NCBI RefSeq assembly: GCF_012395815.1
Contig: NZ_JAAZQQ010000005.1
Coordinates: forward strand, 1-64,000
DNA: 64,000 nt
Reading direction: 5' to 3'
Origin: Roseicyclus persicicus
GTDB taxonomy: Bacteria > Pseudomonadota > Alphaproteobacteria > Rhodobacterales > Rhodobacteraceae
Shown: one piece after another, positions 23,198 to 39,011 of the stretch
Numbering within the stretch: position 1 is the stretch's first letter
How the letters are laid out: each line of letters opens with the position of its first letter
Translations under genes and position numbers: made by a program
The notes under the pieces: model-generated
The model's database searches: none
What the model was told of the DNA's origin: nothing
What the model saw: only the letters and a program-made list of their open reading frames with translations

Positions 23198-24814
23198 ATG
23201 GGACGCGACGTGCTTCTGAAGATCGAGGGGCTGAGGATCGAGGGCCGCTCGGGCGACACCTGGACCGAGATCGTCAAGGGCATCGACCTGACGCTCCACA
23301 AGGGCGAGGTGCTGGGCCTGATCGGGGAATCGGGCGCGGGGAAATCCACCGTGGGCCTCGCCGCCATGGGCTTTGCCCGCGACGGCTGCCGGATCACCGG
23401 GGGGTCGATCCTGTTCGACGGCATCGACCTGCGCAAGGCGTCCGAGGCGAAGAAGCGCGACCTGCGCGGCGCCCGCATCGCCTATGTCGCGCAGTCCGCG
23501 GCGGCCAGCTTCAACCCCGCCCACAAGCTGATCGACCAGTATTGCGAGGCCCCGGTCGTCCACGGCGTGATGTCCCGCGACAAGGCCGAGCACGACGCCA
23601 TCGACCTCTACCGCCGGATGCAGCTGCCCGACCCCGACGGCATCGGCTTCCGCTACCCGCACCAGGTGTCCGGCGGGCAGCTCCAGCGCGCGATGACCGC
23701 GATGGCCATGTCCTGCCGGCCCGACCTGATCATCTTCGACGAGCCGACCACCGCGCTCGACGTGACCACCCAGATCGAGGTGCTGGCCGCGATCCGCGAC
23801 ATCGTCCGGCAGTTCGACACCGCGGCCATCTACATCACCCACGACCTCGCCGTGGTGGCGCAGGCCGCCGACCGGATCAAGGTGCTCCTGCGCGGCGAGG
23901 AGGTCGAGGAGGCCCCCACCCGGCAGATGCTGGATGCCCCGCGCGAGGCCTACACCAAGAGCCTCTGGGCCGTGCGCAGCTTCGCCCGCCCCGAACAGCC
24001 CCCCGCCGCCGGCACGCCGGTCGTGTCGGTCAAGGGCGTGACGGCGGCCTACGGCACCGTGAACGTGCTCGAGGACGTCAGCTTCGACATCCACGCCGGG
24101 CGCACCGTCGCCGTGGTGGGCGAAAGCGGCTCGGGCAAGTCGACCACCGCCCGGGTCATCACCGGCCTCCTGCCGCCGAAATCGGGCGCGGTGCTGTTCG
24201 AGGGCAAGCCGCTGCCCCCGGCGCTCAAGGGGCGCACGCGGGAACAGCTGCGGCAGGTCCAGATGATCTACCAGATGGCCGACACCGCGCTGAACCCCAA
24301 GCTCAAGCTGCGGGAACTGATCGGACGGCCCGCGCAGATGTACCTGGGGCTGCAGGGCAAGGCGCTGGACGACCGGGTCCGCGACCTGCTGAACCTCATC
24401 GAGCTGGAGCCGGCGAAATACATCGACCGGCTGCCCGGCGAGCTGTCGGGCGGGCAGAAACAGCGCATCGGCATCGCCCGGGCGCTGGCCGCCGAGCCGC
24501 AGCTCATCATCTGCGACGAGGTCACATCGGCGCTCGACCAGATCGTGCAGGAGGGGATCCTCAAGCTCCTGAACCGGCTGCAGGGCGAATTCGGGCTGGC
24601 CTACATGTTCATCACCCACGACCTCGCCACCGTGCGGGCCATCGCCGACGAGGTGGTGGTGATGCAGCGCGGCCGCGTGATCGAACAGGGCCCCAAGGCC
24701 GAGATGTTCGCGCCCCCGCATGAGCCCTACACCGACCTTTTGCTGTCCTCGGTGCCCGAGATGGACCCCGACTGGCTGACGCGGCTGCTGGAGAGCCGCG
24801 CCGCCGCGTCCTAG
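23198..24814 (+). CDS. ABC transporter ATP-binding protein with two fused ATPase domains
   Basis: A 538-residue protein joining the two ATPases that are usually separate DppD and DppF. The first domain has a Walker A in [11 protein letters not shown], the ABC signature in [10 protein letters not shown] and Walker B in [12 protein letters not shown]. The second has [27 protein letters not shown] and [12 protein letters not shown]. Both carry an H-loop (YITHDLAVV and FITHDLATV). The E of the second Walker B is present, so both sites could hydrolyse ATP. It ends four bases inside the convergent carnitine dehydrogenase gene. Confidence 0.92.
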
Positions 24815-26226
24815 CGTCCGATCACCAGCCGGTCGGGCCGCGGCGCGCCGGCATGGGCCGCGGCCATCGCCGCGGCCTTCTCCGCCACGTCCGCCCGCGG
24901 CGCCACCACCCGCCGCGTCGACAGGTCGACGTGCAGGAGCAGCGTCTCGACCGTGGCCGCCGGCGTCTCGCCCCCGGTCCAGAACTTGTTCAGCAGGTGC
25001 AGCTTGCGCCCGTCCCCGCCCAGAACCTGCGTCGTCACCGTGATCCGGTCGCCGATGTCGATCTCGCTGAAATAGCGGATGTGGTTCTCGGCGGTGAAGT
25101 AGCTGAGGCCGCCCGCGATATAGGCGGCATCCGCCCCGATCATCTCCATGAACCGGTCCGAGGCGCGGGCCGACACCTCCATGTAGGGCGCCTCGTTCAT
25201 GTGGCCGTTGTAGTCGACATAGGTGGTCGGCACCTGCATCTCGACCGTCACCGGCAAGCCGTCCGGCCCGGTCTCGGCCAGCGGCAGCCGCGCCTCGTGG
25301 TCGCGGATCACGCCGCCCGCGCCGCTGCCGGTGCGCTTGAGCGCCCGCATGATGCCCACCAGGTTGTCGTCGCGCAGCCGCTCCAGCTCGCGGATGCTGC
25401 GATGCCCCGACTGCGCGTCGGACTGCCCCGCGATCAGGTCCACCAGCTCGTCGTTGAACTCGGGCACGTCCATCAGCTTGGTCCAGGGCCAGGTCAGGCA
25501 GGGGCCGAACTGCGCCATGAAATGCCGCATCCCGGCCTCGCCGCCGGCGATGCGGTAGGTCTCGAACATGCCCATCTGCGCCCACCGCAGGCCGAACCCC
25601 ATGCGGATCGCCTCGTCGATCTCCTCGGTCGTGGCGACGCCGTCCTTGACCAGCCACAGCGCCTCGCGCCAGACGGCCTCGAGGAAGCGGTCGGCGATAT
25701 GGGCGTCGATCTCCTTGCGCACGGTCAGGGGGAACATGCCGATCCCGCGCAGGGTCTCGGCCGCCCTGGCCGTCCTGTCAGCCTCGCCCACCAGCTCCAC
25801 CAGCGGCAGGAGGTAGACCGGGTTGAACGGGTGCGCGACGATGGCCGTCGCCCCTTTCTCGTTCAGTTCCGAGGGCTTGAAGCCCGACGTTGAACTGCCG
25901 ATCACCACGCCCTCGGGCGCCGCCGCCATCACCTGCGCCAGCACGCGGTGCTTCAGGTCCAGCCGCTCGGGCACGCTTTCCTGCACCCAGTCCGCGCCCG
26001 CGACCGTCTCCTCGACCGTCGCGCAGAAGGTCAGGCTGCCCTCGGCCGGCAGCCCCCGCTCGTAGAGCCCCGGCAGCGACCGCCGGGCGTTGGCCAGCAC
26101 CTCGCCGATCTTGCGCCCGGCCTCGGGGTCGGGGTCGAAGATCGCCACGTCCCAGCCATTCAGCAGGAACCGCGCGGCCCAGCCGCCGCCGATCACGCCC
26201 CCGCCCACGATTGCCGCACGTCCCAT
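24811..26226 (-). CDS. lcdH: L-carnitine 3-dehydrogenase fused to a betainyl-CoA thioesterase
   Basis: A 471-residue fusion. Residues 1 to about 320 are a 3-hydroxyacyl-CoA dehydrogenase-type enzyme: dinucleotide loop GGGVIG at 8-13, SSTSGF, and the catalytic histidine in VAHPFNPVYLLPLVELV. From about 330 a hotdog thioesterase follows, with the signature YVDYNGHMNEAPY (Asp338, His342). Carnitine dehydrogenases carrying this extra domain are known in alphaproteobacteria. The first half oxidises L-carnitine to 3-dehydrocarnitine, and the second is thought to hydrolyse betainyl-CoA to glycine betaine. The adjacent BKACE supplies the step between. It is the last gene of the operon, with a one-base overlap with the SDR gene. 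Confidence 0.9.
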   Translation of the reverse strand: MGRAAIVGGGVIGGGWAARFLLNGWDVAIFDPDPEAGRKIGEVLANARRSLPGLYERGLPAEGSLTFCATVEETVAGADWVQESVPERLDLKHRVLAQVMAAAPEGVVIGSSTSGFKPSELNEKGATAIVAHPFNPVYLLPLVELVGEADRTARAAETLRGIGMFPLTVRKEIDAHIADRFLEAVWREALWLVKDGVATTEEIDEAIRMGFGLRWAQMGMFETYRIAGGEAGMRHFMAQFGPCLTWPWTKLMDVPEFNDELVDLIAGQSDAQSGHRSIRELERLRDDNLVGIMRALKRTGSGAGGVIRDHEARLPLAETGPDGLPVTVEMQVPTTYVDYNGHMNEAPYMEVSARASDRFMEMIGADAAYIAGGLSYFTAENHIRYFSEIDIGDRITVTTQVLGGDGRKLHLLNKFWTGGETPAATVETLLLHVDLSTRRVVAPRADVAEKAAAMAAAHAGAPRPDRLVIGR

Positions 26227-26978
26227 CAGGTCGTCCTTTCCGTATGCCCATCCACCGCGAGCGCCTGCCCGCTGATCCCCGCCGCTCCGGGCGAGGCGAG
26301 GAACAGCGCCATGGCCGCGACCTCGCCCGCCGTCACGAAGCGCCGGAGCGCCACGCCTTCGGTAAAGCCCGCGCGCACCTCGGCCTCGCTCCGGCCCTGC
26401 GCCGCCGCCTCCATCGCCACCACCCGGTCCATCCGCGGCCCCTCGACCGCGCCCGGGCAGATCGCGTTGACCCGCACGCCGTGCGGGCCCAGCTCCGAGG
26501 CCAGCGCCTTGGTCAGCCCCACGATGCCCCATTTCGCCGCCACGTAGGGCGTGCGCCACGGAAAGCCGAACAGGCCCGAGACCGAGCTGGTCAGCAGGAT
26601 CAGCCCCGCCCCCTGCCCCTTCATGACCCGCGCCGCCCAGCGGCAGGTCAGAAAGGCGCCATCGAGGTTGACCGACAGGCAGCGCCGCCAGTCGTCGAAG
26701 GCCAGCTCCTCCACCGCGCCCGCCGGCCCGCCGATCCCGGCGTTGGAGATCACCACCTCCGCCCCGCCCCAGTCGGCCTCGACGCGGGCGAGAAAGCCGC
26801 CCATCGCGGCCTCGTCCGTCACGTCCGCCACCTCGGCCCGGATCGCGGGATCGACCGCCGCGACCGCCGCGGGGTCCGCGTCGCAGACCGCGACCCGGTC
26901 GCCCGCGTCCCGGAACGTCTCGGCCATGGCCAGGCCCAGCCCCGACGCGCCCCCGGTGATGACGACCCGCCGGCTCAT
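26226..26978 (-). CDS. SDR-family oxidoreductase in the carnitine operon
   Basis: A 250-residue classical short-chain dehydrogenase. It has the cofactor loop TGGASGLGLA (8-17) with an Asp after beta-2 (VCDADP) favouring NAD, the SNAGIGG motif, and catalytic Ser in LLTSSVSG with YVAAKWG (Tyr-x-x-x-Lys). It overlaps the BKACE gene by four bases and the carnitine dehydrogenase by one, so it belongs to the pathway. Candidate roles are oxidation of a carnitine stereoisomer, or interconversion of acetoacetate (the BKACE co-product) and 3-hydroxybutyrate. The sequence does not decide between these. Confidence 0.8.
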   Translation of the reverse strand: MSRRVVITGGASGLGLAMAETFRDAGDRVAVCDADPAAVAAVDPAIRAEVADVTDEAAMGGFLARVEADWGGAEVVISNAGIGGPAGAVEELAFDDWRRCLSVNLDGAFLTCRWAARVMKGQGAGLILLTSSVSGLFGFPWRTPYVAAKWGIVGLTKALASELGPHGVRVNAICPGAVEGPRMDRVVAMEAAAQGRSEAEVRAGFTEGVALRRFVTAGEVAAMALFLASPGAAGISGQALAVDGHTERTT

Positions 26979-27886
26979 CGCGGCGCCCGCTTCACCAGCC
27001 CCAGCTTGTCGCGCACCTGCTGCGGCGTCATCACCCGCGCGCCCATGCGCTCCACGATGCCGACCGCCCGGTCGACCAGCTGCGCGTTCGTGGCCAGCAC
27101 CCCCTTGTCGAGCCACAGGTTGTCCTCGAGCCCGACCCGCACATGCCCCCCCGCCAGCACCGCCGCCGCGGCATAGGCCATCTGGTTGCGGCCGAGGGCA
27201 AAGGCGGAAAAGGTCCAGTCCTCCGGCACGTTGTTCACCATCGCCATGAAGGTGTTCAGGTCGTCGGGCGCCCCCCACGGCACGCCCATGCACAGCTGCA
27301 CCAGCGCCGGGCCGTCCAGCACGCCCTCCTTCACCAGCTCCTTGGCGAACCACAGGTGGCCGGTGTCGAAGGCCTCGATCTCGGGCTTCACCCCCAGCGC
27401 CGTCATCATCCGCCCCATCGCCCGCAACATGCCCGGCGTGTTGGTCATGACGTAGTCGGCCTCGGCGAAGTTCATCGTGCCGCAGTCCAGCGTGCAGATC
27501 TCGGGCAGGCATTCGGCGACATGCTCCACCCGTTCCGCCGCGCCGGCCATGTCGGTGCCCTTCTCGCTCAGGGGCAGGGGCCGCTCGGTCGGGCCGAAGG
27601 TGACGTCTCCGCCCATCCCGGCGGTCAGGTTCAGCACCACGTCGACCTCGGCCTCGCGGATGCGCTCGGTCACCTCGCGGTAAAGGTCGACCCGCCGCGA
27701 CGGCACGCCCGTCTCGGGGTCGCGGACGTGGCAATGCACGATCGCCGCGCCCGCGCGGGCCGCCTCGATCGCGCTGTCGGCGATCTGCTTGGGGCTGCGG
27801 GGCACATGCGGGCTGCGGTCCTGCGTGGAGCCCGAGCCGGTCACGGCGCAGGTGATGAAGACCTCGCGGGTCATGGTCAACGGCAT
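26975..27886 (-). CDS. Beta-keto acid cleavage enzyme (BKACE, DUF849), 3-dehydrocarnitine-cleaving
   Basis: A 303-residue TIM-barrel zinc enzyme of the BKACE family. Zinc ligands are His51 and His53 in IVHCHVRD and Glu254 in VRVGLEDN, next to the catalytic Asp255 and preceded by Arg250. BKACEs condense a beta-keto acid with acetyl-CoA and split it into a new CoA ester plus acetoacetate. With a carnitine dehydrogenase and thioesterase in the same operon, the substrate is almost certainly 3-dehydrocarnitine, giving betainyl-CoA and acetoacetate. The ATG at 27886 has AGGGAGG seven bases upstream, better than the methionine four codons later. Confidence 0.92.
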   Translation of the reverse strand: MPLTMTREVFITCAVTGSGSTQDRSPHVPRSPKQIADSAIEAARAGAAIVHCHVRDPETGVPSRRVDLYREVTERIREAEVDVVLNLTAGMGGDVTFGPTERPLPLSEKGTDMAGAAERVEHVAECLPEICTLDCGTMNFAEADYVMTNTPGMLRAMGRMMTALGVKPEIEAFDTGHLWFAKELVKEGVLDGPALVQLCMGVPWGAPDDLNTFMAMVNNVPEDWTFSAFALGRNQMAYAAAAVLAGGHVRVGLEDNLWLDKGVLATNAQLVDRAVGIVERMGARVMTPQQVRDKLGLVKRAPR

Positions 27887-27933: not shown

Positions 27934-27957
27934 GCGGATTTTCCTGCGAAAATCCGC
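27934..27957 (-). promoter_or_regulatory. Perfect intercistronic stem-loop between caiD-like and BKACE genes
   Basis: On the minus strand GCGGATTTTC-GCAG-GAAAATCCGC forms a 10-base perfect stem with a four-base loop, beginning in the stop codon of the hydratase gene. It is the only sizeable gap (70 bases) inside an otherwise overlapping operon. No T-run follows, so RNA processing or partial attenuation fits better than full termination. Confidence 0.6.
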
Positions 27958-28742
27958 TATTTTCCTTTCCACACCGGGTCGCGCTTCTCGGCGAAGGCGC
28001 GCGCCCCTTCCTTCTGGTCCTCCGAGCGGTAGAGGCGTTCCACCGTCTCGAACTGGCTGCGCGTGATCCGGTTCAGCGCGTCGTGGAACCGCATCGCCTC
28101 GGCCTCGCGCACGATCTCCTTGATCGCGGCAAAGACCAGCGGCGGGCCGGCGGCCAGATCGTCGGCCATCGCGCGCGCCGCGTCCATCAATTCGCCTGCC
28201 GGCATCACCCGGTTCACCAGCCCCCAATGCGCGGCCTCGGCGGCATCGAACCAGCGCCCGGTGAACAGGAGTTCCATGGCGATGTGGTAGGGGATGCGCT
28301 TGGGCAGCTTGAGCGAGGCGGCGTCGGCCACCGTCCCCGACCGGATCTCGGGCAGCGCGAAGGTCGCGTGGTCCGCCGCCAGGATCATGTCGGCGCACAG
28401 CGCGATCTCCAGCCCCCCGCCGCAGCAGATGCCGTTCACCGCGGCGATCACCGGCTTGTTCAGCCCCCGCAGCTCCTGCAACCCGCCGAAGCCCCCGACG
28501 CCGTAGTCGGTGTCGGGTGCCTCGCCGGCTGCGGCGGCCTTGAGGTCCCAGCCGGGGCAGAAGAATTTCTCCCCCGCGCCGGTCAGGATGGCGACGCGCA
28601 GGTCGGGGTCGTCGCGGAATTCCGTGAACACCTCGCCCATGATCCGGCTGGTGGCCGCGTCGATGGCGTTGGCCTTGGGCCGGTCCAGCGTCACCTCCAG
28701 CACCGCGCCGCGGCGGGCCGTGCGGATCGGAGTGTCGGTCAT
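27957..28742 (-). CDS. caiD: Crotonobetainyl-CoA hydratase (carnitinyl-CoA dehydratase), CaiD-like
   Basis: A 261-residue crotonase-fold enzyme, the same length as enterobacterial CaiD and closely matching it as I recall that sequence, for example RPKANAIDA, GEKFF.PGWDLKAAA.GEAPD and the terminal FAEKRDPVWKGK. The two acids used for hydration are present: Glu112 in GGGLEIALCAD and Glu132 in FALPEIRSG. It would hydrate crotonobetainyl-CoA to L-carnitinyl-CoA. The start overlaps the ADP-forming ligase gene by four bases. In this setting it probably runs in the catabolic direction from gamma-butyrobetaine or crotonobetaine toward carnitine. Confidence 0.92.
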   Translation of the reverse strand: MTDTPIRTARRGAVLEVTLDRPKANAIDAATSRIMGEVFTEFRDDPDLRVAILTGAGEKFFCPGWDLKAAAAGEAPDTDYGVGGFGGLQELRGLNKPVIAAVNGICCGGGLEIALCADMILAADHATFALPEIRSGTVADAASLKLPKRIPYHIAMELLFTGRWFDAAEAAHWGLVNRVMPAGELMDAARAMADDLAAGPPLVFAAIKEIVREAEAMRFHDALNRITRSQFETVERLYRSEDQKEGARAFAEKRDPVWKGK

Positions 28743-30766
28743 GGCGTGTCTCCCAGTCGGATCAGGGCGTCGACCGCGACGGCGCGGTCCGGCGTCGCGA
28801 TCAGGGGGTTGATCTCCAGCTCCATCAAGGCACCGGCATGGGCCACGGCGCAATCCTGCACCGACAGGATCGCGGCGACCAGTGCCGGCATGTCCGCGGA
28901 CGGCCGGCCCCGGTAGCCCGACAGGAGCGGGCCGCAGCGCAGCCCGGCCAGCGCGGCCTCGATCTCGCTGGCCGTGGCCGGCACGCTCAAGGACAGGGTG
29001 TCGCCCAGGATCTCGGCCATCACGCCGCCCGCCCCCAGCGTCAGGACGAAGCCGTGCGCCGGGTCGCGCAGGATGCCCACCAGCACCTCGGCCACGGCCC
29101 CCGTCACCATTTCTTCTACAAGAAACGCCGCGCCACCCATCCGCGTGGCCGCAGCCTCCACCGCGTCGGCATCGGCCAGCCCCAGCGCCACCGCCCCGGC
29201 CTCGGTCTTGTGCGCGACGCCAAGCGCCTTGAGCACCACCGGAAAGCCGATCTCCGCCGCGCGGGCGGCGGCCTCCCCGGCGCTCGCCGCCTCGGCCCGC
29301 CGCGGCACCGGCACGCCGTGGGCGGCCAGCACCGCCTTGCCCTCGGCCTCGGTCAGAAGCCGCACCGCCCGCGGCTCCGGCCCCGGCACCAGCAGCGCCC
29401 CCGCCCGCCCCGGCCGCGCCCGGCCCGCGGCGGCGATGGCGGCCAGCCCCTCGGCCATGCCGCAGAGCGGCACGATCCCGCGCGCCACCATCGCCTGCGC
29501 GGCGGGTTCCGGCATCGTCTCGGGCAGGCTCGACAGGATCGCCATGGGCTTGCCCGCCGCCGCGGCGGTGTCGGCGACGGCATCGACCACGATCTCCCAG
29601 GCCGCGCCGTCGCAACGGTCGGGGCGCGGGAAATCCAGCACCACCGCCCCGATGTCGACCGGCCCGGCCATCATCGCGGTGAAGGTCGCCGTGATCGCGG
29701 CCCGGTCGCCCCAGATGTAGGTGTGGTAATCCAGCGGGTTGGCCAGCGCCACCTTGGGCCCCAGCGCCGCCCGCAGCGCCGCCGCCTGCGTGGGCACCAG
29801 CGGCGGGCAGACCAGCCCGGTCCGCGCCGCGGCATCGGCCATCAGCCCCGCCTCGCCCCCCGAGCAGGACATCGAGGCGAGCCGCGTCCCGGCCAGCGGC
29901 CCGGCCACGTGCAGCAGTTTCAGCGTCTCCAGCAGCTCGGCCAGCGTTTCCACCTGCGCGACGCCCAGCCGGTCGAACAGCGCCCGCGCCCCCGCCGCGC
30001 TGCCGGCCAGCGACCCGGTGTGCGACACCGCCGCCACCCGCGACTGCTCGGAGGCGCCCGCCTTGATCGCCACGATCGGCTTGCCGGCCGCCCGCGCCAT
30101 CGCGGCAAAGGCGCCGAGGTCGCCGATCCCCTCCACGTGCAGCCCCAGCGCCGTGACCCGGTCGTCGGCCAGCACCGCGGCCGCGATCTCGGCCAGCCCC
30201 GTCTGCGCCTGGTTGCCGGCCGTCACCACGTAGGCCACCGGCAGGCCGCGGGTCTGCATGGTCAGGTTGATCGCGATGTTCGACGATTGCGTGACCAGCG
30301 CCACGCCCCGCCCGGTCCGCAGGCCGCCATGCTGATCGGGCCAGAGCGCCGCGCCGTCGAGCAGGTTGAGAAACCCGTAGCAGTTCGGGCCCAGGATGCG
30401 CATGGACCCCGCGGCGGCGACCAGCGCCGCCTCCAGCGTGTCGCCATCGCCGGTCTCGGACTTCGACTCGCGGAAGCCCGAGGCGAAGCAGACGGCACCC
30501 CCCGCGCCCCGCTCGGCCAGCGCGCGCACGACCTCCACCGTGGCCCCGCGGTTGACGCCGACAAAGGCCGCGTCGGGGGCCCCGGGCAGGTCGGCGACCG
30601 AGGCGAAGGCCGGCAGCCCCGCGATCTCGCGCTTGGTGGCATGGACGGGCCAGACCGGCCCGGCAAAGCCGATCTTGCGGCACTCGGCGATGACATTGGC
30701 GCACCACGCGCCCCCGCCCACCACGGCGATGGAACGCGGGCGCAGCAGGCGCGACAGGGGCTGCAT
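28739..30766 (-). CDS. ADP-forming acyl-CoA synthetase (fused alpha-beta), likely betaine-CoA ligase
   Basis: A 675-residue NDP-forming acyl-CoA synthetase. It has an N-terminal CoA-binding Rossmann domain (SIAVVGGGAWCANVI) and a succinyl-CoA-ligase-like middle domain. The phosphorylatable histidine region lies in VAAVSHTGSLAGS, and an ATP-grasp domain follows from about residue 450 (FPVVLKALGVAHKTEAGAV, LEINPLIATPDRAV). It activates a carboxylate to its CoA thioester with release of ADP. The classical carnitine route uses the AMP-forming ligase CaiC and the transferase CaiB; neither is present, so this enzyme probably fills their place. It overlaps the hydratase gene and starts one base from the acyl-CoA dehydrogenase stop. 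Confidence 0.88.
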   Translation of the reverse strand: MQPLSRLLRPRSIAVVGGGAWCANVIAECRKIGFAGPVWPVHATKREIAGLPAFASVADLPGAPDAAFVGVNRGATVEVVRALAERGAGGAVCFASGFRESKSETGDGDTLEAALVAAAGSMRILGPNCYGFLNLLDGAALWPDQHGGLRTGRGVALVTQSSNIAINLTMQTRGLPVAYVVTAGNQAQTGLAEIAAAVLADDRVTALGLHVEGIGDLGAFAAMARAAGKPIVAIKAGASEQSRVAAVSHTGSLAGSAAGARALFDRLGVAQVETLAELLETLKLLHVAGPLAGTRLASMSCSGGEAGLMADAAARTGLVCPPLVPTQAAALRAALGPKVALANPLDYHTYIWGDRAAITATFTAMMAGPVDIGAVVLDFPRPDRCDGAAWEIVVDAVADTAAAAGKPMAILSSLPETMPEPAAQAMVARGIVPLCGMAEGLAAIAAAGRARPGRAGALLVPGPEPRAVRLLTEAEGKAVLAAHGVPVPRRAEAASAGEAAARAAEIGFPVVLKALGVAHKTEAGAVALGLADADAVEAAATRMGGAAFLVEEMVTGAVAEVLVGILRDPAHGFVLTLGAGGVMAEILGDTLSLSVPATASEIEAALAGLRCGPLLSGYRGRPSADMPALVAAILSVQDCAVAHAGALMELEINPLIATPDRAVAVDALIRLGDTP

Positions 30767-30767
30767 G

Positions 30768-31928
30768 TCAGGCGCCCAGCGGGCGGAAGATCTCGCGCCC
30801 GATGATGTGGCGCTGGATCTCGGAGGTGCCGTCCCAGATCCGTTCGACCCGCGCGTCGCGCCAGAACCGCTCGATCGGCAGGTCGTCCATCAGCCCCATG
30901 CCGCCATGGATCTGCAGCGTCGTGTCCGTCACCCGCGCCAGCATCTCGGTGGCGTAGAGCTTGGCGCTGGCGATCTCGCGGTTGGCCGGCAGCCCCCGGT
31001 CGAGCCGCCAGGCCGCCGCCAGCGTCAGCCAGTCGGCGGCGTCGATCTCGGTGATCATGTCGGCCACCTGGAAACTGACGCCCTGGAACTTGGCGATGGC
31101 CTGCCCGAACTGGCGCCGCTCGGCGGCCCATTGGACGGCGTGGTCAAAGCAGCGCCGCGCGCGGCCCACGGAAAAGGCCGCCACCGTCAGGCGGGTGGCA
31201 TAGAGCCAGGTGTTCATCACGTCGAATCCGCCGTCGACCGCGCCCAGGACCTGGCCCGCCGGCAGCCGGCAGTCGTCGAATTCGAGGATGCAGTTCTTGT
31301 AGCCCCGGTGGCTGACCGACCTGTAGCCGTCGCGCACGGTAAAGCCCGGGTGGCCGCGGTCGACCAGGAAGCAGGTGATCCGCTTCTTCGGCCCGTGCGG
31401 CGTGTCGTCGACCCCGGTCGCGGCAAAGACGATGAAGAAATCGGCGTGGTCCGCGCCCGAGATGAAATGCTTGGTGCCGTTCAGCACCCAGTCGCCGCCG
31501 TCCCGCACCGCGGTGCATTTCATGCCCCGCACGTCCGACCCCGCGTCGGGCTCGGTCATGGCCAGCGCGTCCATCCGCTCGCCCCGGACGGCGGGCAGCA
31601 GGTAGCGGTCGCGCTGCTCGCCCTCGCAGGCCATCAGGATGTTCTGCGGCCGCCCGAAGAAATGCGTCAGCGCCATCGACCCGCGGCCCAGCTCGCGCTC
31701 GACCAGCGTGAATTCGAGGTGGTTCAGGCCCCCGCCGCCCACCTCCTCGGGGAAGTTGCAGGCCCAGAACCCCATCTCGATGACCTTGCGGCGCAGTTCG
31801 GCGGCCAGATCGGGCGGCACCTCGCCGGTGCGCTCCACCTCGGCCTCGTGGGGGTAGATCTCGGTCTCGACAAAGCTGCGGACCGTGTCGACGATCATCT
31901 CCTGCTCGGATGTCAGACCGAACTCCAT
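30768..31928 (-). CDS. Acyl-CoA dehydrogenase, CaiA/gamma-butyrobetainyl-CoA dehydrogenase-like
   Basis: A 386-residue acyl-CoA dehydrogenase with the standard helical, beta and helical domains. Signatures are ALAMTEPDAGSDVRGMKC and TKHFISGADHADFF for FAD and substrate, and QIHGGMGLM near the end. The catalytic base position, usually Glu in an 'EGT' motif, reads IWDGTSEIQ, so it is Asp here unless the base lies elsewhere. It is the first gene of the operon, with AGGGAGG before the ATG. In context it would oxidise gamma-butyrobetainyl-CoA to crotonobetainyl-CoA and pass electrons to ETF. No fixAB-like genes are adjacent. Confidence 0.88.
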   Translation of the reverse strand: MEFGLTSEQEMIVDTVRSFVETEIYPHEAEVERTGEVPPDLAAELRRKVIEMGFWACNFPEEVGGGGLNHLEFTLVERELGRGSMALTHFFGRPQNILMACEGEQRDRYLLPAVRGERMDALAMTEPDAGSDVRGMKCTAVRDGGDWVLNGTKHFISGADHADFFIVFAATGVDDTPHGPKKRITCFLVDRGHPGFTVRDGYRSVSHRGYKNCILEFDDCRLPAGQVLGAVDGGFDVMNTWLYATRLTVAAFSVGRARRCFDHAVQWAAERRQFGQAIAKFQGVSFQVADMITEIDAADWLTLAAAWRLDRGLPANREIASAKLYATEMLARVTDTTLQIHGGMGLMDDLPIERFWRDARVERIWDGTSEIQRHIIGREIFRPLGA

Positions 31929-31975
31929 GACGCCCTCCCTGCATCTGCCCCTTGCTAGGAAGCGGCCGCTGCGGG

Positions 31976-32009
31976 CATCCTGCAGACTTGGCGCCTCATC
32001 CTGCAGGAT
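31976..32009. promoter_or_regulatory. Candidate AraC-type operator: 10-base direct repeat at 21-base spacing
   Basis: CATCCTGCAG occurs at 31976-31985 and again at 31997-32006, exactly 21 bases apart. The second copy extends to the 12-base palindrome ATCCTGCAGGAT. Two helical turns between direct half-sites is the classic AraC-family arrangement. The site lies 48 bases before the acyl-CoA dehydrogenase start and 15 bases before the regulator's GTG, so it could serve both directions. Confidence 0.65.
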
Positions 32010-32024
32010 TCGAAAATTCCGCCC

Positions 32025-32957
32025 GTGCCCACCCCAGGACCGACCCACGTCGCCATCCTCCTGTTCCCGTCCTTCTCCAACCTCTGCCTCGCCAACGCGG
32101 TGGAACCCTTGCGCGCGGCCAACACCCTGTCGAAGAAGCCGCTCTACCGCTGGACGCATGTCGGCCTCGACGCGGGCCCGGTGCGGTCCTCCTCGGGGCT
32201 GCCGGTGACGCCCGACACGGCGCTGTCGGGGCTGGCCGGGGCCGATTACCTGCTGGTGATGCCCAGCTACGGCCACCGCGATTTCGCCAAGCCCGCCACG
32301 CTCCGGGCGCTGCGGGCGGCGGCGCGGCGCTGCGGGGCGGTGGGCGGGCTCGACACCGGCAGCCTGCTCCTCGCCGCCGCGGGGCTGATGGACGGGTATC
32401 GCGCGACCTCGCACTGGGACGTGCTGGACGAATTCGCGGAGGGCTGGCCCGAGGTCGAGGTCGTCCCCGACCGCGTGGTGATCGACCGCGACCGGGTCAG
32501 CTGCGGCGGCGCGACCACGACGCTGGAGCTGATGCTGGAGCTGATCGCCCAGCACCACGGCCCGATGCTCAGCCTCGACGTGGCGGCGCTGTTCATGCAT
32601 GGCGAACGGCCCGCGGCCCCCGCAGCGCCCCCCGGCCTCGCCCGCGACCGGGTGCTGCGCGCCGCCGCCGCGCTGATGCGGCGGCACCTGGAGCCGCCCC
32701 TGCCGATCCCCGAGATCGCCCGGCGGCTGGGGATCAGCCAGCGCGGGCTGGAAATGCGCTGCCGGGCGGCGGCGGGGCGCACGCCCCAAGGTCTCTACGC
32801 CGCGATCCGCATGGCCGAGGCGCAGCGGCTGGTGCAGGACACGACCCTCAGCGTGACCGAGATCGCGGGGCGTGTGGGCTATGCCGACGCCTCCGCGATG
32901 ACCCGGATGTTCCGGCGCCAGTTCGGCGTCACGCCGCAGGCGCTGCGGACGCGCTGA
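32025..32957 (+). CDS. GlxA-family AraC-type regulator, CdhR/GbdR-like (GTG start)
   Basis: A 310-residue regulator combining an N-terminal DJ-1/PfpI amidotransferase-like sensor domain (about 1-190; VAILLFPSFSNLCLANAVEPLRA) with a C-terminal AraC double HTH. The first HTH is IPEIARRLGISQRGLEMR; the second is VTEIAGRVGYADASAMTRMFRRQFGVTP. The closest known functional relatives are CdhR and GbdR, which respond to carnitine and glycine betaine in pseudomonads. It is divergent from the carnitine operon with a 21-base-phased direct repeat between. The GTG lacks an obvious ribosome binding site, and no ATG fits. Tail-to-tail it abuts the DUF1028 gene with no gap. Confidence 0.88.
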   Translation: MPTPGPTHVAILLFPSFSNLCLANAVEPLRAANTLSKKPLYRWTHVGLDAGPVRSSSGLPVTPDTALSGLAGADYLLVMPSYGHRDFAKPATLRALRAAARRCGAVGGLDTGSLLLAAAGLMDGYRATSHWDVLDEFAEGWPEVEVVPDRVVIDRDRVSCGGATTTLELMLELIAQHHGPMLSLDVAALFMHGERPAAPAAPPGLARDRVLRAAAALMRRHLEPPLPIPEIARRLGISQRGLEMRCRAAAGRTPQGLYAAIRMAEAQRLVQDTTLSVTEIAGRVGYADASAMTRMFRRQFGVTPQALRTR

Positions 32958-33713
32958 TCAGGCGTCGAGCCGCGTGGCGAAGGACCGGCTGACCCGGCCC
33001 TCGGCCTTGCGCCGCGCCTCCTCGGCGGCGATGGCCGCGTCGATGCCGCTGCGGTCGGTCACGCCCGAGAAATTCGCCCGCGTGGGCATGGCGTCGGCCA
33101 CGTGCAGGAACCGTTCGTGGGCCACGTCGTAGAGACGGCGCAGCTCCCCCAGCGGGTCGGCGTGGTCGTCGGCGCGCAGCGAGATCCACGGGTAATCCTC
33201 GGTCCGGTGGATGACCAGCGCCGCGGATTGCGTGCCGCGCTTGTCCCCGCCGGCCAGCTGCCCGGCCTCCATCGCCTTCATCAGGCGTTCGGCGAAGGGC
33301 AGGTGCCGGTTCTTCGTGTAGGCGCAGAGCGTGCCCACGATCACCGCCTCGCCCGCCAGCATGTTGCCCGCGACCGACACGCCCTCGTCGGACACGTGGC
33401 CGCACCAGTCGACGCAGTTGCGCCCGGTGTGGGCGGCGACGCGCCCCTCGGCGTCGATCATGTGGGCCTGCCGGATCGCCTGGCCGCCGTCGCGGCGGAC
33501 CAGATCGGCCAGGACCTCGCCGGCCGCCTCGCCGGCGGCCATGCGGTCGGCGGCCTCGAGGCCCCAGATCGGGCTGACGAAGGCCTGGGTGGCGACGGCG
33601 CATTTCCCGCCGCGGATATGGGGGACCAGCGCCCCCACCGCGAAGAAACGGCTCGCGACCGCGACACCGTACTGGCCGGTGTCGGGGTCGCGCGCGACAA
33701 TCGAATAGGTCAT
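32958..33713 (-). CDS. DUF1028 family protein
   Basis: A 251-residue protein of the DUF1028 family, predicted to have an Ntn-hydrolase-like fold. The N-terminus MTYSIVARDPDTGQYGVAVAS is the family signature, with GGKCAVATQAFVSP and SVAGNMLAG further on. The residue that would act as N-terminal nucleophile after processing is not obvious. It is the last gene of the GntR-ABC-GGT operon, 43 bases after the gamma-glutamyltransferase-like gene. That position suggests a hydrolase in peptide or amide degradation, but its activity is unknown. Confidence 0.82.
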   Translation of the reverse strand: MTYSIVARDPDTGQYGVAVASRFFAVGALVPHIRGGKCAVATQAFVSPIWGLEAADRMAAGEAAGEVLADLVRRDGGQAIRQAHMIDAEGRVAAHTGRNCVDWCGHVSDEGVSVAGNMLAGEAVIVGTLCAYTKNRHLPFAERLMKAMEAGQLAGGDKRGTQSAALVIHRTEDYPWISLRADDHADPLGELRRLYDVAHERFLHVADAMPTRANFSGVTDRSGIDAAIAAEEARRKAEGRVSRSFATRLDA

Positions 33714-33756
33714 GGTCGTTTTTCTTTCCTGCTCTGTGCCCCGGTCTGGGGGGCGG

Positions 33757-35544
33757 TTAGCGTCCGATCGCGTAGGCCTGCATCAGCCGCGGGGTGGCGG
33801 CCGCCTTCAACAGCCCGTCGGCATCGCGCGACGCGGCGGTCAGGCGGCCGACGGTCCAGGGCTCGGCCACCTCGACGTCGTGGCCCTTGTCGCGGAGCGC
33901 CTGCAGCACCGCCTCGCCAAAGGCGGGCTCGGCCATCAGGTGGCCGGGGCGCGTGCCGCGCGGGTAGAAGGAGGACTGGAAGTGCCCGGTGTGGAACAGC
34001 GGCGCGTCGATGCCTTCCTGCAGGTTCATCTGCCCGTGCACCAGGCGCAGGAACAGGATCAGCTGCCACTGGTCCTGCTGGTCGCCGCCCGGCGTGCCGA
34101 AGGCGAGTTGCAGACCGTCCGTTTCCGCCATCGAGGGCGACAGCGTCGTGCGCGGCCGCCGACCGGGCGCGAGCGAGGTCGGCAGCCCCTCGTCCAGCCA
34201 GAACATCTGCGCGCGACTGTTGAGCGGCATCCCCAGGCCCGGCACGATGGGCGAGGATTGCAGCCAGCCGCCCGAGGGCGTGGCCGAGACCGAGTTGCCC
34301 CAGCGGTCGATGACGTCGATGTGCACGGTGTCGCCGCGCTTTTCGGTCAGGTGGGCCATGGTCGGCTCCCCTGCCCCCACGCCCGGCCCCGCGGCCATGT
34401 CGCGGCCCGCCCGCGCGATGGCGGCCTTGGCCCAGGCCTCGTAGCCCGCGATGTGGCCCGGGCGCTGCTCCAGCGACGCGGTGTCCCCGATCAGCGCGCG
34501 GCGCGTGGCGGCATACTCGGCCGACAGCAGCGTCTCGACGGGCAGGTCGACGTGCAGCGGGTCGCCGTAGTAGGCCTCGCGGTCGGCGGCGGACAGCTTG
34601 ATCGTCTCGGTGACGGTGTGGACGAACTCGGCCCCGCGCAGGTCCATCGACGCGACGTCCACGCCCGACAGCGTCATCAGCGACTGCAGCAGCGTCGGCC
34701 CCTGGGTCCAGAGCCCGCCCTTCCACACCCGCCAGCCGTGGTAGTCGACCGACAGCGGCGCCTCGTAGGTCGCCTGCCACGTCGCCATGTCCTGCCCCGT
34801 CAGCACGCCCTTGCGACGCGCGCCCGCGGCGTCCATCACGCAGGCGTCCCGCAGGTAGCTGTCGATGGCTTCCGCGATGAAGCCCTCGTAGAAGGCCCGC
34901 CGCGCGGCCTCCATCTGGCCCTCGCGGGTCGGCGCGGTCTCGGCCTCGGTCAGCAGCCGATCCCAGGTGTCGGCGAGGTCGGGGTTGGCGAACAGCGCGC
35001 CGGCCTTGGGCGCCACGCCGCCCGGCATCCAGACGGCATGGGAGGTCGGCCATTCGTCGCGGAAGAAATCCCCCAGCCCCGCGATGGTGTTGGCCACGCG
35101 CGGCAGCACCGGGTGGCCGTGGCGCGCGTAGTAGATCGCGGGCGCGAGGATGTCGCGGAGGGCCAAGCTGCCGTGGTCGCGCAGCATCAGCATCCACGCC
35201 CCGAAAGCGCCCGGCACGACGGTGGCCAGCAGGCCCGAGCCCGGGACCAGCGTCAGCCCCTCGGCCTTGTAATGCGCGATGGTCGCGCCCGCGGGCGCGG
35301 TGCCCTGCCCGCAGACCATCACCGGCGCATCGGCCCCCGCCGTCCGCATCAGGAGCGGCATGTCCCCCAGCGGCCCGTTCAGGTGCGGCTCGACCACCTG
35401 CAGGGTAAAGCCCATGGCGGCGGCCGCGTCGAAGGCATTGCCGCCCTGCTCGAGGATCTTCATCCCCACCGCCGAGGCGATCCAGTGGGTGGAGGTGGCG
35501 ACACCGAAGGTGCCGGTGATCTCGGGGCGCGTCGTGAAACTCAT
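33757..35544 (-). CDS. Gamma-glutamyltransferase-like protein without a signal peptide
   Basis: A 595-residue member of the gamma-glutamyltranspeptidase family. The predicted autoprocessing and catalytic threonine is Thr406 in GDTVHIDVIDRWGNSVSAT, equivalent to the TTH site of classical GGT but with Val after the Thr. The early glycine-rich loop is also divergent (VEPHLNGPLGDMPLLM). There is no signal peptide or hydrophobic leader, so the enzyme should stay in the cytoplasm, unlike typical periplasmic GGT. It sits directly after the permeases of a peptide-type ABC transporter. It probably hydrolyses an imported gamma-glutamyl or related amide. Confidence 0.85.
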   Translation of the reverse strand: MSFTTRPEITGTFGVATSTHWIASAVGMKILEQGGNAFDAAAAMGFTLQVVEPHLNGPLGDMPLLMRTAGADAPVMVCGQGTAPAGATIAHYKAEGLTLVPGSGLLATVVPGAFGAWMLMLRDHGSLALRDILAPAIYYARHGHPVLPRVANTIAGLGDFFRDEWPTSHAVWMPGGVAPKAGALFANPDLADTWDRLLTEAETAPTREGQMEAARRAFYEGFIAEAIDSYLRDACVMDAAGARRKGVLTGQDMATWQATYEAPLSVDYHGWRVWKGGLWTQGPTLLQSLMTLSGVDVASMDLRGAEFVHTVTETIKLSAADREAYYGDPLHVDLPVETLLSAEYAATRRALIGDTASLEQRPGHIAGYEAWAKAAIARAGRDMAAGPGVGAGEPTMAHLTEKRGDTVHIDVIDRWGNSVSATPSGGWLQSSPIVPGLGMPLNSRAQMFWLDEGLPTSLAPGRRPRTTLSPSMAETDGLQLAFGTPGGDQQDQWQLILFLRLVHGQMNLQEGIDAPLFHTGHFQSSFYPRGTRPGHLMAEPAFGEAVLQALRDKGHDVEVAEPWTVGRLTAASRDADGLLKAAATPRLMQAYAIGR

Positions 35545-35570
35545 GGACCTGTTCCTGTTGCCGTCTTTTT

Positions 35571-36458
35571 TCAGTGGTCGCGGGGATCGAGCGCGTCGCG
35601 CAGCCCGTCGCCGAGAAGGTTGAAGCCGAGCACCACGAGGAAGATCGCGGCGCCGGGGTAGAGCGCCATCCAGGGCGCCTGTTCGAGGAAGTTCTTGGCC
35701 ACGTTCAGCATCGAGCCCCAGCTGGGCGCGGGCGGCTGCTGGCCGAGCCCGAGGAAGGACAGCGACGCCTCGGCGATGATCGCGGTGGCGATGGTCAGCG
35801 TCGACTGCACCAGGATCGGCGGGAAAATGTTGGGCAGGATGTAGCGGGTCACCAGCGCCCAGTGGGTCAGGCCCACGGCGCGGGCGCTTTCGACGTAATC
35901 CTCGGTCATCACCTGCATTGTCTGGCCTCGGGCGAGGCGGATGAAAATCGGCATGGCGCTGAGGCCGATGGCGATCATCGCGTTGGTCAGCGACGGCCCG
36001 AGGAAGGCCGCCAGCGCGATGGCGAGGATCAGGAAGGGCGCGGCCAGCATCGCCTCGGTCACGCGGCTGATGGCGGCATCGGTCCAGCCGCCGAGATAGC
36101 CCGCCATCACCCCCAGCGGCACGCCGAGGCACACCGCGATGGCGACCGACACGACACCGGCCAGGAGCGACGCCTGCGCCCCCCAGACCATGCGCGACAG
36201 CACGCTGCGCCCGATCTCGTCGGTGCCGAAGGGATGCACGGCGGACGGCGCCTGCCGCACCGCCAGCCAGTCGGTCGCCGTCGGGTCGACGATCGGCAGG
36301 AGCGGGGCCAGCAGCGCGACGATGACGAAGAAGGCCACGATGGCGCCCCCGAGGAGCGCGGCCTTGTTGGCGCGGAACTTGCGCCAGACGCGGCTTTGCT
36401 TGCGGGGCAGCGCCTCGGCGGCGGCGGCGGCGGCGGGGGTGGTGGCGACGGTGCTCAT
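35571..36458 (-). CDS. ABC transporter permease, DppC-like
   Basis: A 295-residue permease. An alanine-rich cytoplasmic N-terminus is followed by a first helix near 35-60 (AALLGGAIVAFFVIVALLAPL). The DppC hallmark HPFGTDEIGRSVLSRMVWGAQ and coupling motif ESARAVGLTHWALVTRYILPN follow. It ends with the usual GFNLLGDGLRDALDP. The start was placed at the ATG that overlaps the DppB-like gene's stop by four bases; a longer frame above it lacks family similarity. It forms the channel with the preceding gene. Confidence 0.93.
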   Translation of the reverse strand: MSTVATTPAAAAAAEALPRKQSRVWRKFRANKAALLGGAIVAFFVIVALLAPLLPIVDPTATDWLAVRQAPSAVHPFGTDEIGRSVLSRMVWGAQASLLAGVVSVAIAVCLGVPLGVMAGYLGGWTDAAISRVTEAMLAAPFLILAIALAAFLGPSLTNAMIAIGLSAMPIFIRLARGQTMQVMTEDYVESARAVGLTHWALVTRYILPNIFPPILVQSTLTIATAIIAEASLSFLGLGQQPPAPSWGSMLNVAKNFLEQAPWMALYPGAAIFLVVLGFNLLGDGLRDALDPRDH

Positions 36459-37399
36459 CTGTCCCTCATGCGCGGGTTGAGGACGCGGTAGGCCACGTCG
36501 GCCAGAAGGTTCATGAAGATGAAGGCGACCCCGGTGCACAGCACGATCCCCTGCACCACCGCGTAGTCGCGGTTGAACACGGCATCGACGACCAGCTTGC
36601 CGAAGCCCGGGATGGTGAAGATCTGCTCGGTCAGCACGGCGCCGGCCAGAAGTTCGCCGAACAGCAGCGTGGTCACCGTGACGATCGGCACCAGCGCGTT
36701 CCTGAGCGCGTGTTTCACCAGCACCACCCGCTCGGCCAGGCCCTTGGCCCGCGCGGTGCGGATGTAGTCGGATTTCAGGACGGACAGCATCGCCGACCGC
36801 GTGTGGCGCATCAGCGTGGCGGCGATGCCCGTGCCCAGCACGAAGGCCGGCATCAGCATGGTCTTGATGGATTGCAGCGGGTCTTCGGAAAACGGCTGGT
36901 AGCCCGAGGCCGGCAGCCAGCCCAGCTGCACGGAAATCAGCAGGATCATCATGATCCCGAGCCAGAAGTTCGGCACCGACAGGCCGGACAGGGCCACCAC
37001 GTTGGCGACCCAGTCGATCCAGGTGCCCTTCTTGTAGGCCGACAAGACGCCCGCCGGCACGCCGATCACGATGGCGATCACCAGCGCCATGGTGGCCAGC
37101 TGGATCGTGACCGGCAGCTTCTGCGCGATCAGCTCCAGCACCGGCTGCTGGGTGCGCAGCGAGATGCCGAGGTCGCCCTGCAGCGCGTTGCCGATCCAGG
37201 TGAAGTACTGGACGATGATGGGGTCGTTCAGGCGGTACTGCTCGCGCAGGTATTCCAGCACGGCCGGGTCGCGCTCCTCGCCGGCCAGCACCAGCACCGG
37301 GTCGCCCGGCAGCAGTTTCTGCAGCGTGAAGACGAAGATCGAGATCAGGATGATCGTCGGGATCGCGATCAGCAGGCGGCGTCCGATGAAGGCGAGCAT
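36455..37399 (-). CDS. ABC transporter permease, DppB-like
   Basis: A 314-residue permease with six transmembrane segments, starting MLAFIGRRLLIAIPTIILIS. A large first periplasmic loop has AGEERDPAVLEYLREQYRLNDP. The coupling motif is RTARAKGLAERVVLVKHALRNAL. It is separated from the binding-protein gene by a 96-base gap containing an 11-base-pair stem-loop and overlaps the DppC-like gene by four bases. Confidence 0.93.
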   Translation of the reverse strand: MLAFIGRRLLIAIPTIILISIFVFTLQKLLPGDPVLVLAGEERDPAVLEYLREQYRLNDPIIVQYFTWIGNALQGDLGISLRTQQPVLELIAQKLPVTIQLATMALVIAIVIGVPAGVLSAYKKGTWIDWVANVVALSGLSVPNFWLGIMMILLISVQLGWLPASGYQPFSEDPLQSIKTMLMPAFVLGTGIAATLMRHTRSAMLSVLKSDYIRTARAKGLAERVVLVKHALRNALVPIVTVTTLLFGELLAGAVLTEQIFTIPGFGKLVVDAVFNRDYAVVQGIVLCTGVAFIFMNLLADVAYRVLNPRMRDR

Positions 37400-37443
37400 G
37401 GGCGGCGCTCCGGGGCTGCGGGGGACAGGGGGGAAACGGGAAA

Positions 37444-37481
37444 CCGGGCCGCGCGGGGAGAGAGAGGGTCGCGCGGCCCGG
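37444..37481 (-). promoter_or_regulatory. Stem-loop between binding-protein and permease genes
   Basis: CCGGGCCGCGC at 37444-37454 pairs perfectly with GCGCGGCCCGG at 37471-37481 around a 16-base purine-rich loop. It starts 15 bases beyond the binding-protein stop and ends 45 bases before the permease start. It probably sets the expression ratio within the operon. Confidence 0.6.
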
Positions 37482-37495
37482 GTCGGGTCAGGCCG

Positions 37496-39007
37496 TCATT
37501 CGGCCATGGTCACGCCGGCCAGACGGATCATGCCGTCGGGGTAGGCGACGAAGCCCTCGATGTCGGCGTCCATCGCCCAGATCCAGACCGGGTGATAGAG
37601 GTAGACGATCGGCAGGTCCGACATCAGGATCTCGCTCGCGGCGTTGTAGGCGGCGCGGCGGGCGTCGATGTCGTTGGACACGCGGGCCTCGTTCAGCAGG
37701 CGGTCGACCTCGGCGTTGGAGTAGCCCGAGTCGTTGATGCCGCCGCCGGTGGTCAGGAACTGGTGGATGTTCCCGTCGGGATCGACGCGGCCGGACCAGC
37801 CGACCTGGCTCGCCTGGTAGGCGCCCGCCGTCTGGTCGGACAGCAGCGTGGCGAATTCCTTGGCCTCCAGCGAGATGCGGATGCCCGCCTCGCCCGCCAT
37901 CGCCTGGATCACCTGCATCACCTGCAGCTGCACCGGGTTGTTGGCGACCTGCACGCGGATGTCCACGCCGTCGGGATAGCCCGCCTCGGCCAGCAGCGCA
38001 CGGGCGGCTTCCACGTCACGCTCGGGGATCGGGAAGGCGTCGTTGTACCAGGGCGAGGTCGGCGGCCAGGGCTGGTTGCCGGGGGCGAAGGCGCCCTCGA
38101 ACACGACCTGGTTCACCACGTTGCGGTCGATCGACAGCGACAGGGCCTGGCGCACGCGGGCGTCCATGCCCAGCGGGCCGTTCGCCTCGTCGCCGTTGCC
38201 GACGTTGATGGTCATCGCCTGGTAGCCCAGCGAGGTCGCCTCGGCCATCGCCAGCGCGTCGTCGCCGCGCACCGAGGCCACGTCGGTCGCCGACAGCCGC
38301 TCGAGCATGTCGAGGTCGCCCGCCCGCAGGTTCGCCAGACGCACGGTGGTGTCGGGGATCGGCAGGAAGGTCACGGTCTCGAAGGCATAGGCGTCGGCGT
38401 TCCAGTAGTCGGCAAAGCGCGACAGGACGATGCGGTCCTGCTGGATGCGCTCGACGAACTGGTAGGGGCCCGAGCAGACCGGGTTGAGGCCGAAGTCGAG
38501 GCCCGCGGCCTCGGCGGCGGTCGGCGAGATCATCATGCCGGCGCGGTCCGACAGCTGCGCGAGCAGCGTGGCGTCCGGGGCGCCGAGGGTGAAGCGGATG
38601 GTGAACTCGTCCACCACCTCGACCCCGGTGATCGAGCTCAGCTCCGAGGCGCGGCGGCTCTCGGGCAGGTTCTGGCTGCGGTCGATGTTGGCGGCCACGG
38701 CCTCGGCGTTGAACGGCGTGCCGTCATGGAACACCACGCCCTCGCGCAGCGTCATGGTCAGGATCAGCCCGTCCTCGGACCACTCCCAGCCGGTGGCCAG
38801 CTGCGGCACGATCTCGAGGTCGGGGGTGATGTCCACCAGCTTGTCGCACAGCGAGTCGAACACGATCCGCCCCACGAAGGTGCGGCCCTGGTCGGGGTCG
38901 AGCACGTCGGCATCGTCCTGCAGGCCGATGCGCAGGTCCTGCGCGCCGGCGGCCGAGGCCGCGAGCCCGAAGGCCAGCGCCAGAACCACGGTTTTCGTTT
39001 TTGCCAT
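37496..39007 (-). CDS. ABC transporter solute-binding protein, family 5
   Basis: A 503-residue periplasmic protein with a Sec signal peptide (MAKTKTVVLALAFGLAASAAGA, cleaved about residue 22). The mature sequence fits family 5: LDPDQGRTFVGRIVFDSLCDKLVDI, TGWEWSEDGLILTMTLREG, PVCSGPYQFVERI. Glutathione- and dipeptide-binding proteins are in this group. The cytosolic GGT-like enzyme in the operon makes a gamma-glutamyl peptide a plausible ligand. It lies four bases from the upstream ATPase gene. Confidence 0.92.
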   Translation of the reverse strand: MAKTKTVVLALAFGLAASAAGAQDLRIGLQDDADVLDPDQGRTFVGRIVFDSLCDKLVDITPDLEIVPQLATGWEWSEDGLILTMTLREGVVFHDGTPFNAEAVAANIDRSQNLPESRRASELSSITGVEVVDEFTIRFTLGAPDATLLAQLSDRAGMMISPTAAEAAGLDFGLNPVCSGPYQFVERIQQDRIVLSRFADYWNADAYAFETVTFLPIPDTTVRLANLRAGDLDMLERLSATDVASVRGDDALAMAEATSLGYQAMTINVGNGDEANGPLGMDARVRQALSLSIDRNVVNQVVFEGAFAPGNQPWPPTSPWYNDAFPIPERDVEAARALLAEAGYPDGVDIRVQVANNPVQLQVMQVIQAMAGEAGIRISLEAKEFATLLSDQTAGAYQASQVGWSGRVDPDGNIHQFLTTGGGINDSGYSNAEVDRLLNEARVSNDIDARRAAYNAASEILMSDLPIVYLYHPVWIWAMDADIEGFVAYPDGMIRLAGVTMAE

Positions 39008-39011
39008 CAGG

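Follow-up and report, generated by a model that had tools for sequence, protein, structure and literature searches.

Operators of the kind considered here are already known, and the half-site letters at the present locus are its own. The araI1-I2 site of E. coli AraC resembles it in having 17-bp tandem half-sites at ~21 bp, with the promoter-proximal half lying over the -35 element; AraC differs in its sugar-binding N-terminal domain and in looping with a distant site. In P. aeruginosa, the footprinted site of CdhR at caiX-cdhR has two directly repeated GGTCGC half-sites around a 15-bp spacer, for a register of 21 bp (6+15). CdhR lowered its own basal expression and raised it with carnitine, and GbdR bound an overlapping site at caiX-cdhR (PMC5806209). 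For ArgR of P. aeruginosa, tandem 16-bp boxes with a 5-bp separation were described, placing them in the same 21-bp register (16+5) as the repeat in our window, which is the whole 64-kb stretch of DNA analyzed here; the ArgR consensus TGTCGCN6GNAA, the arginine regulon with its many predicted sites, and the box separation that varies in P. alloputida set this system apart (PMC10963909). SphR of P. aeruginosa, also a member of the AraC family, was similar in its two direct 15-bp half-sites located 6-8 bp apart, and differed in its letters, its ligand sphingosine, and its three promoters (PMC3900636).

The repeat in the window was located in a gap of 96 bp (31929-32024) that separates two divergent genes, an acyl-CoA dehydrogenase gene starting at 31928 (minus strand) and a regulator gene with its GTG at 32025 (plus strand). 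The 10-mer CATCCTGCAG occurred exactly at 31976-31985 and at 31997-32006 in a register of 21 bp, as the original prediction had claimed. The pair was found once in the 64-kb window, with a mean of 0.00 over 100 dinucleotide shuffles and with none of the 100 window shuffles containing it, and it was the sole exact copy across the 3.7-Mb genome. Three further places in the genome matched the 10-mer pair at 3 mismatches (0 for the backwards control), and the 9-mer ATCCTGCAG occurred one other time in the window, at 15695. The idea of a wider regulon within this genome was rejected, since a wider degenerate pair pattern allowing up to 3 mismatches returned nothing in the 3.7-Mb genome beyond the window site (control 0). 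An Rfam scan of 30000-34000 gave no element at the gathering threshold.

The location of the site between a carnitine operon and an AraC-type regulator, which was also part of the original prediction, was supported by the content of both flanks. The regulator (32025-32957, plus strand) contained the DJ-1_PfpI and HTH_18 domains of a GATase-1/AraC-type, CdhR/GbdR-like protein; with 186.4 bits in the Pseudomonas GbdR model (cut-off 480), it was a relative of GbdR and not that equivalog. On the other flank, all six operon genes were on the minus strand. The first gene (30768-31928; Pfam Acyl-CoA_dh) scored 186.7 bits in the crotonobetainyl-CoA dehydrogenase model against a cut-off of 540 and was not that equivalog. 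It was followed by an ATP-grasp acyl-CoA ligase (28739-30766; Pfam ATP-grasp_5, Succ_CoA_lig, and CoA_binding_2), which by its domains is of the NDP-forming type instead of the AMP-forming type found in the carnitine pathway of E. coli. The enoyl-CoA hydratase (27957-28745) had the crotonobetainyl-CoA hydratase model as its best NCBIfam match, with 338.9 bits, below the cut-off of 500. Next came a BKACE beta-keto acid cleavage enzyme (26975-27886; Pfam BKACE, 1.3e-102), which would probably cleave dehydrocarnitine, and a short-chain dehydrogenase (26226-26990; Pfam adh_short_C2). The last gene (24811-26223) encoded a carnitine 3-dehydrogenase-thioesterase fusion (3HCDH_N and 4HBT_2), and its 715.8 bits in NF005716 (cut-off 592) made it the only operon gene to pass a specific NCBIfam carnitine-gene model. 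We take the operon to fit the conversion of gamma-butyrobetaine or crotonobetaine to carnitine and onward to glycine betaine, with a presumed substrate for the first genes. Beyond the regulator, the minus-strand genes at 32958-39010 converged on it and encoded a DUF1028 protein, an SBP_bac_5 binding protein whose best NCBIfam model, GsiB, was below its cut-off, and, as we presume from inspection by eye, a gamma-glutamyltranspeptidase-like protein and two permease-like proteins.

Compared with the CdhR site, the present locus shares the divergent carnitine operon and GATase-1/AraC regulator, the two direct-repeat half-sites, and the 21-bp register; the letters differ, with GGTCGC in the CdhR site versus TCATGCAGAATTGG in the family of the present regulator and TCCTGCAG in the window (PMC5806209). 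By direct reading, GGTCGC was absent from both strands of 31929-32024. The position differs too: relative to the start of caiX, the P. aeruginosa site is found at bp -112 or farther away and is described as class I (PMC5806209), whereas the entire gap in the window is 96 bp and its half-site 1 would overlap a putative -35 element. A putative -10 element of the operon, TAGCAA, was present at 31952-31957 on the minus strand, where GCTAG (31954-31958) did not vary among the 11 closest regions, nor did its distance from half-site 1. A spacer of 17 bp would place the -35 element of this putative promoter at 31975-31980, overlapping half-site 1 in a class II arrangement. By its letters, the window site belongs to a different sequence class from the CdhR site, and it may work in a similar way.

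Orthologous regions, each consisting of the gap and about 45 bases of the regulator, were collected from the genus, family, and order. Out of 151 genomes with a match, 30 loci and 80 further regions were taken, together with some from an earlier set (e.g. L038); within the genus, 4 of 13 genomes lacked a match. The 137 regions included 133 distinct ones, in which the operon was led by the dehydrogenase (108), by BKACE (24), or by neither (1). The paralogues L002-L008, a weak Pantoea hit (L013), the pattern hits L047-L050, and the 4 identical regions were left out of the counts. The 11 closest regions, with regulators 75-100% identical, included the window and L014, which is from another genus.

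The two-box model was built from the 122 more distant regions alone, and the 11 closest were then scored with it. With this held-out model, the window site scored 25.5 bits at 31978, the next-best place in the 64 kb scored 8.2, and none of 500 shuffles of the window region reached the site score. Half-site 1, the operon-proximal TCCTGCAGACTTGGCGC at 31978-31994 (plus strand), contributed 7.6 of the 25.5 bits and was weak, with C in place of the usual A or G; half-site 2, the regulator-proximal TCCTGCAGGATTCGAAA at 31999-32015 (plus strand), contributed 17.8 bits and was located 21 bp downstream of half-site 1. At least 18 bits were reached by 127 of the 133 regions, 122 of those 133 having been training regions. 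Half-sites 1 and 2 had the model consensus tCaTGCAGAATTaGaC and TCATGCAGAATTGGAaA, respectively. Among the more distant regions, the 88 with a 21-bp spacing conserved a TGC core at 98-100%, in half-site 1 as well, and the gap columns preceding half-site 1 were mostly conserved at 30-60%. The width of the consensus (TCATGCAGAATTGGAAA), together with this difference between the core and the flanking columns, indicated a half-site of about 15-17 bp. The original prediction was therefore right about the exact 10-mer pair and wrong about 10 bp as the repeat unit. The palindrome that it had noted on the second copy was likewise real in one respect only: ATCCTGCAGGAT at 31998-32009 is a perfect 12-bp reverse complement of itself, but a perfect palindrome was found in just 2 of the 133 regions, the window (L001) and L039. 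It was considered incidental and was ruled out as the recognition unit.

The spacing was conserved across the family. In a motif-free spectrum of the 133 regions requiring an internal match of at least 8/10, a spacing of 21 bp was found in 54 regions and 20 bp in 23, and every other spacing from 8 to 45 occurred in at most 7. With spacings assigned by the model, most of the 122 more distant regions had 21 bp (88), and the others had 20 bp (33) or 22 bp (1). By eye, L098, L101, L103, L104, L113, and L120 had the 20-bp spacing. The recurrence of the repeat beside orthologous operons, which had been proposed as a check of the original prediction, with its absence from relatives sharing the divergent pair named as a refuting outcome, was borne out: each of the 11/11 closest regions beat all of its 500 shuffles under the held-out model, at a spacing of 21 bp, and in cross-tests with a limit of 1 in 200 shuffles, the model from dehydrogenase-led regions recognized 23/24 BKACE-led regions (1 failed) and the model from BKACE-led regions recognized 102/108 dehydrogenase-led regions (6 failed). 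All these counts carry limited independence, as the family regions are also related by common descent. The persistence of the site under a different first operon gene implied an association with the regulator rather than with any one leading gene. L019, the single locus in which no carnitine gene could be found next to the regulator, lacked a half-site pair (1.5 bits). The own-genome paralogues L002-L006 gave no evidence of the repeat, their best 21-bp matches being 6 to 9 of 12 with shuffle fractions of 0.089 to 0.811. The BKACE-led L148 failed the family model, and by eye it contained TTTGCAT twice at 21 bp, as if both half-sites had changed together.

In many family members, half-site 2 contained a possible start codon of the regulator gene and could thus also encode the first residues of the protein. 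Among 118 more distant regions, counted with the 11 closest and those scoring below 15 left out, 114 carried an ATG, GTG, or TTG within half-site 2 that was in the reading frame of the regulator; 2 of these ran into a stop, leaving 112. In 33/112, the half-site 2 codon was the only possible start, upstream or downstream, and the rest may use another. A Shine-Dalgarno-like match of at least 4 preceded 14/112 of the half-site 2 codons versus 105/112 of the divergent genes. A TTG was present at -36 relative to the possible start codon of half-site 2 in 34/77 of the dehydrogenase-led regions with 21-bp spacing and at -35 in 4/19 and 7/12 of the 20-bp groups; in the BKACE-led 21-bp group (n=10), it was not at that place. 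The TTG at -36 would suit a leaderless regulator mRNA, which is suggestive only, the fit being poorer in the other groups. Among the 11 closest regions, the half-site 2 triplet was an in-frame CTG in 6, the window included, and an out-of-frame ATG in 5. In the window (32001-32027), L009, L039, and L041, the regulator gene had its earliest ATG or GTG ~15-24 bases downstream of the half-site 2 triplet.

The 21-bp register was also observed outside the family. The non-family set comprised 30 loci with a divergent carnitine gene and 11 without one, the family members L151, L153, and L154 being left out. A direct repeat of at least 9/12 at exactly 21 bp was found in 14/30 of the loci with a divergent carnitine gene, positives that are not independent because several came from one genus (L157, L174, L175, and L177 share a genus). 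Any other spacing from 12 to 31 occurred in at most 2 of those 30. No clear 21-bp repeat was seen in the remaining 16/30, and the 11 loci without a divergent carnitine gene had none (0/11). The letters were TCATGC in L150 and L152, and elsewhere TCGACAAAT, ATACxGTTTTxG, TTTCCGACTT, TTTCAGACATAA, and others. These repeats with other letters, as well as the 21-bp register of CdhR (PMC5806209), agreed with the claim of the original prediction that the spacing is of the AraC-family type. The second helix region of the regulator began with GY in 48/52 readable family proteins, the remaining 4 having the pattern at a different place, and likewise in L150 and L152; it began with GF in the other non-family loci with the repeat, L167 among them. 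GF was also the type in loci without the repeat and without a carnitine gene, so that the helix comparison set apart the TCATGC class only.

From the sequence comparisons, we consider the repeat to be a predicted operator of the adjacent GATase-1/AraC-type, CdhR/GbdR-like regulator, with a probability of about 0.88. The two tandem half-sites, which have the same direction and are two helical turns apart, would allow the two DNA-binding domains of a dimer to bind on one face of the DNA, by analogy with the CdhR (PMC5806209) and ArgR (PMC10963909) sites. The adjacent regulator would bind the pair and, with a carnitine-type ligand, would activate the minus-strand operon, with half-site 1 in contact with the putative -35 region. 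Half-site 2 would cover the putative promoter and start region of the regulator gene itself, and the same site might also control the synthesis of the regulator. Together with the autoregulation of CdhR (PMC5806209), the position of half-site 2 suggests by analogy a similar self-control here.

Other explanations of the repeat were weighed. That a different protein (a global regulator or a GbdR-like paralogue, for instance) reads the repeat in place of the adjacent regulator is unlikely. GbdR does bind an overlapping site at caiX-cdhR of P. aeruginosa (PMC5806209), and the own genome has 9 further matches to the regulator; against this, a single genome site at up to 3 mismatches is ill-suited to a global regulator, the site keeps its place by the regulator even when a different gene leads the operon, and the single case L019, with no carnitine gene beside the regulator, lacks the pair. 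A fortuitous repeat in GC-rich DNA is close to negligible: the 10-mer is short and its 9-mer recurs in the window at 15695, but neither the 100 window shuffles nor the 500 region shuffles under the held-out model reproduced the pair, and the repeat is conserved among relatives.

The overlap with the regulator start raises the question of whether half-site 2 is conserved only as the coding start of the regulator, its likeness to half-site 1 being coincidental. The in-frame start codon in 114/118 of the scored more distant regions would agree with this, yet we judge it very unlikely, as half-site 1 shares the core at 98-100%, and in 48/112 regions an in-frame stop occurred at or after the start of half-site 1, so that half-site 1 would not be translated in full in that frame there. 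Half-site 2 was retained even when out of frame (5/11 of the closest regions and 4/118 of the others), which argued that its conservation was not only coding, and the register recurs with other letters outside the family.

A wider proposal extends the operator reading. In many family members, the start codon of the regulator would lie within its own operator half-site and the mRNA would be leaderless; one bound dimer would activate the catabolic operon and cover the -10, +1, and initiation codon of the regulator gene. Across Alphaproteobacteria, the 21-bp register would persist as the half-site letters change, and the second recognition helix with them; in the window clade the start codon would have moved out of the half-site. 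Taken jointly, this proposal is tentative, at somewhat less than even odds, and its probability was lowered because the helix comparison set apart the TCATGC class only. Among the matches listed in the open-licence literature, no description of this site sequence or of its overlap with the regulator start was present.

The results provide a defined candidate operator for carnitine-type catabolism in a large family, presumably the Rhodobacteraceae. They suggest that the register of an operator can outlast its letters, and that the start codon of a regulator can sit within its own predicted binding site. If the wider proposal is true, these loci would offer a natural series in which to follow how a regulator and its site co-evolve.
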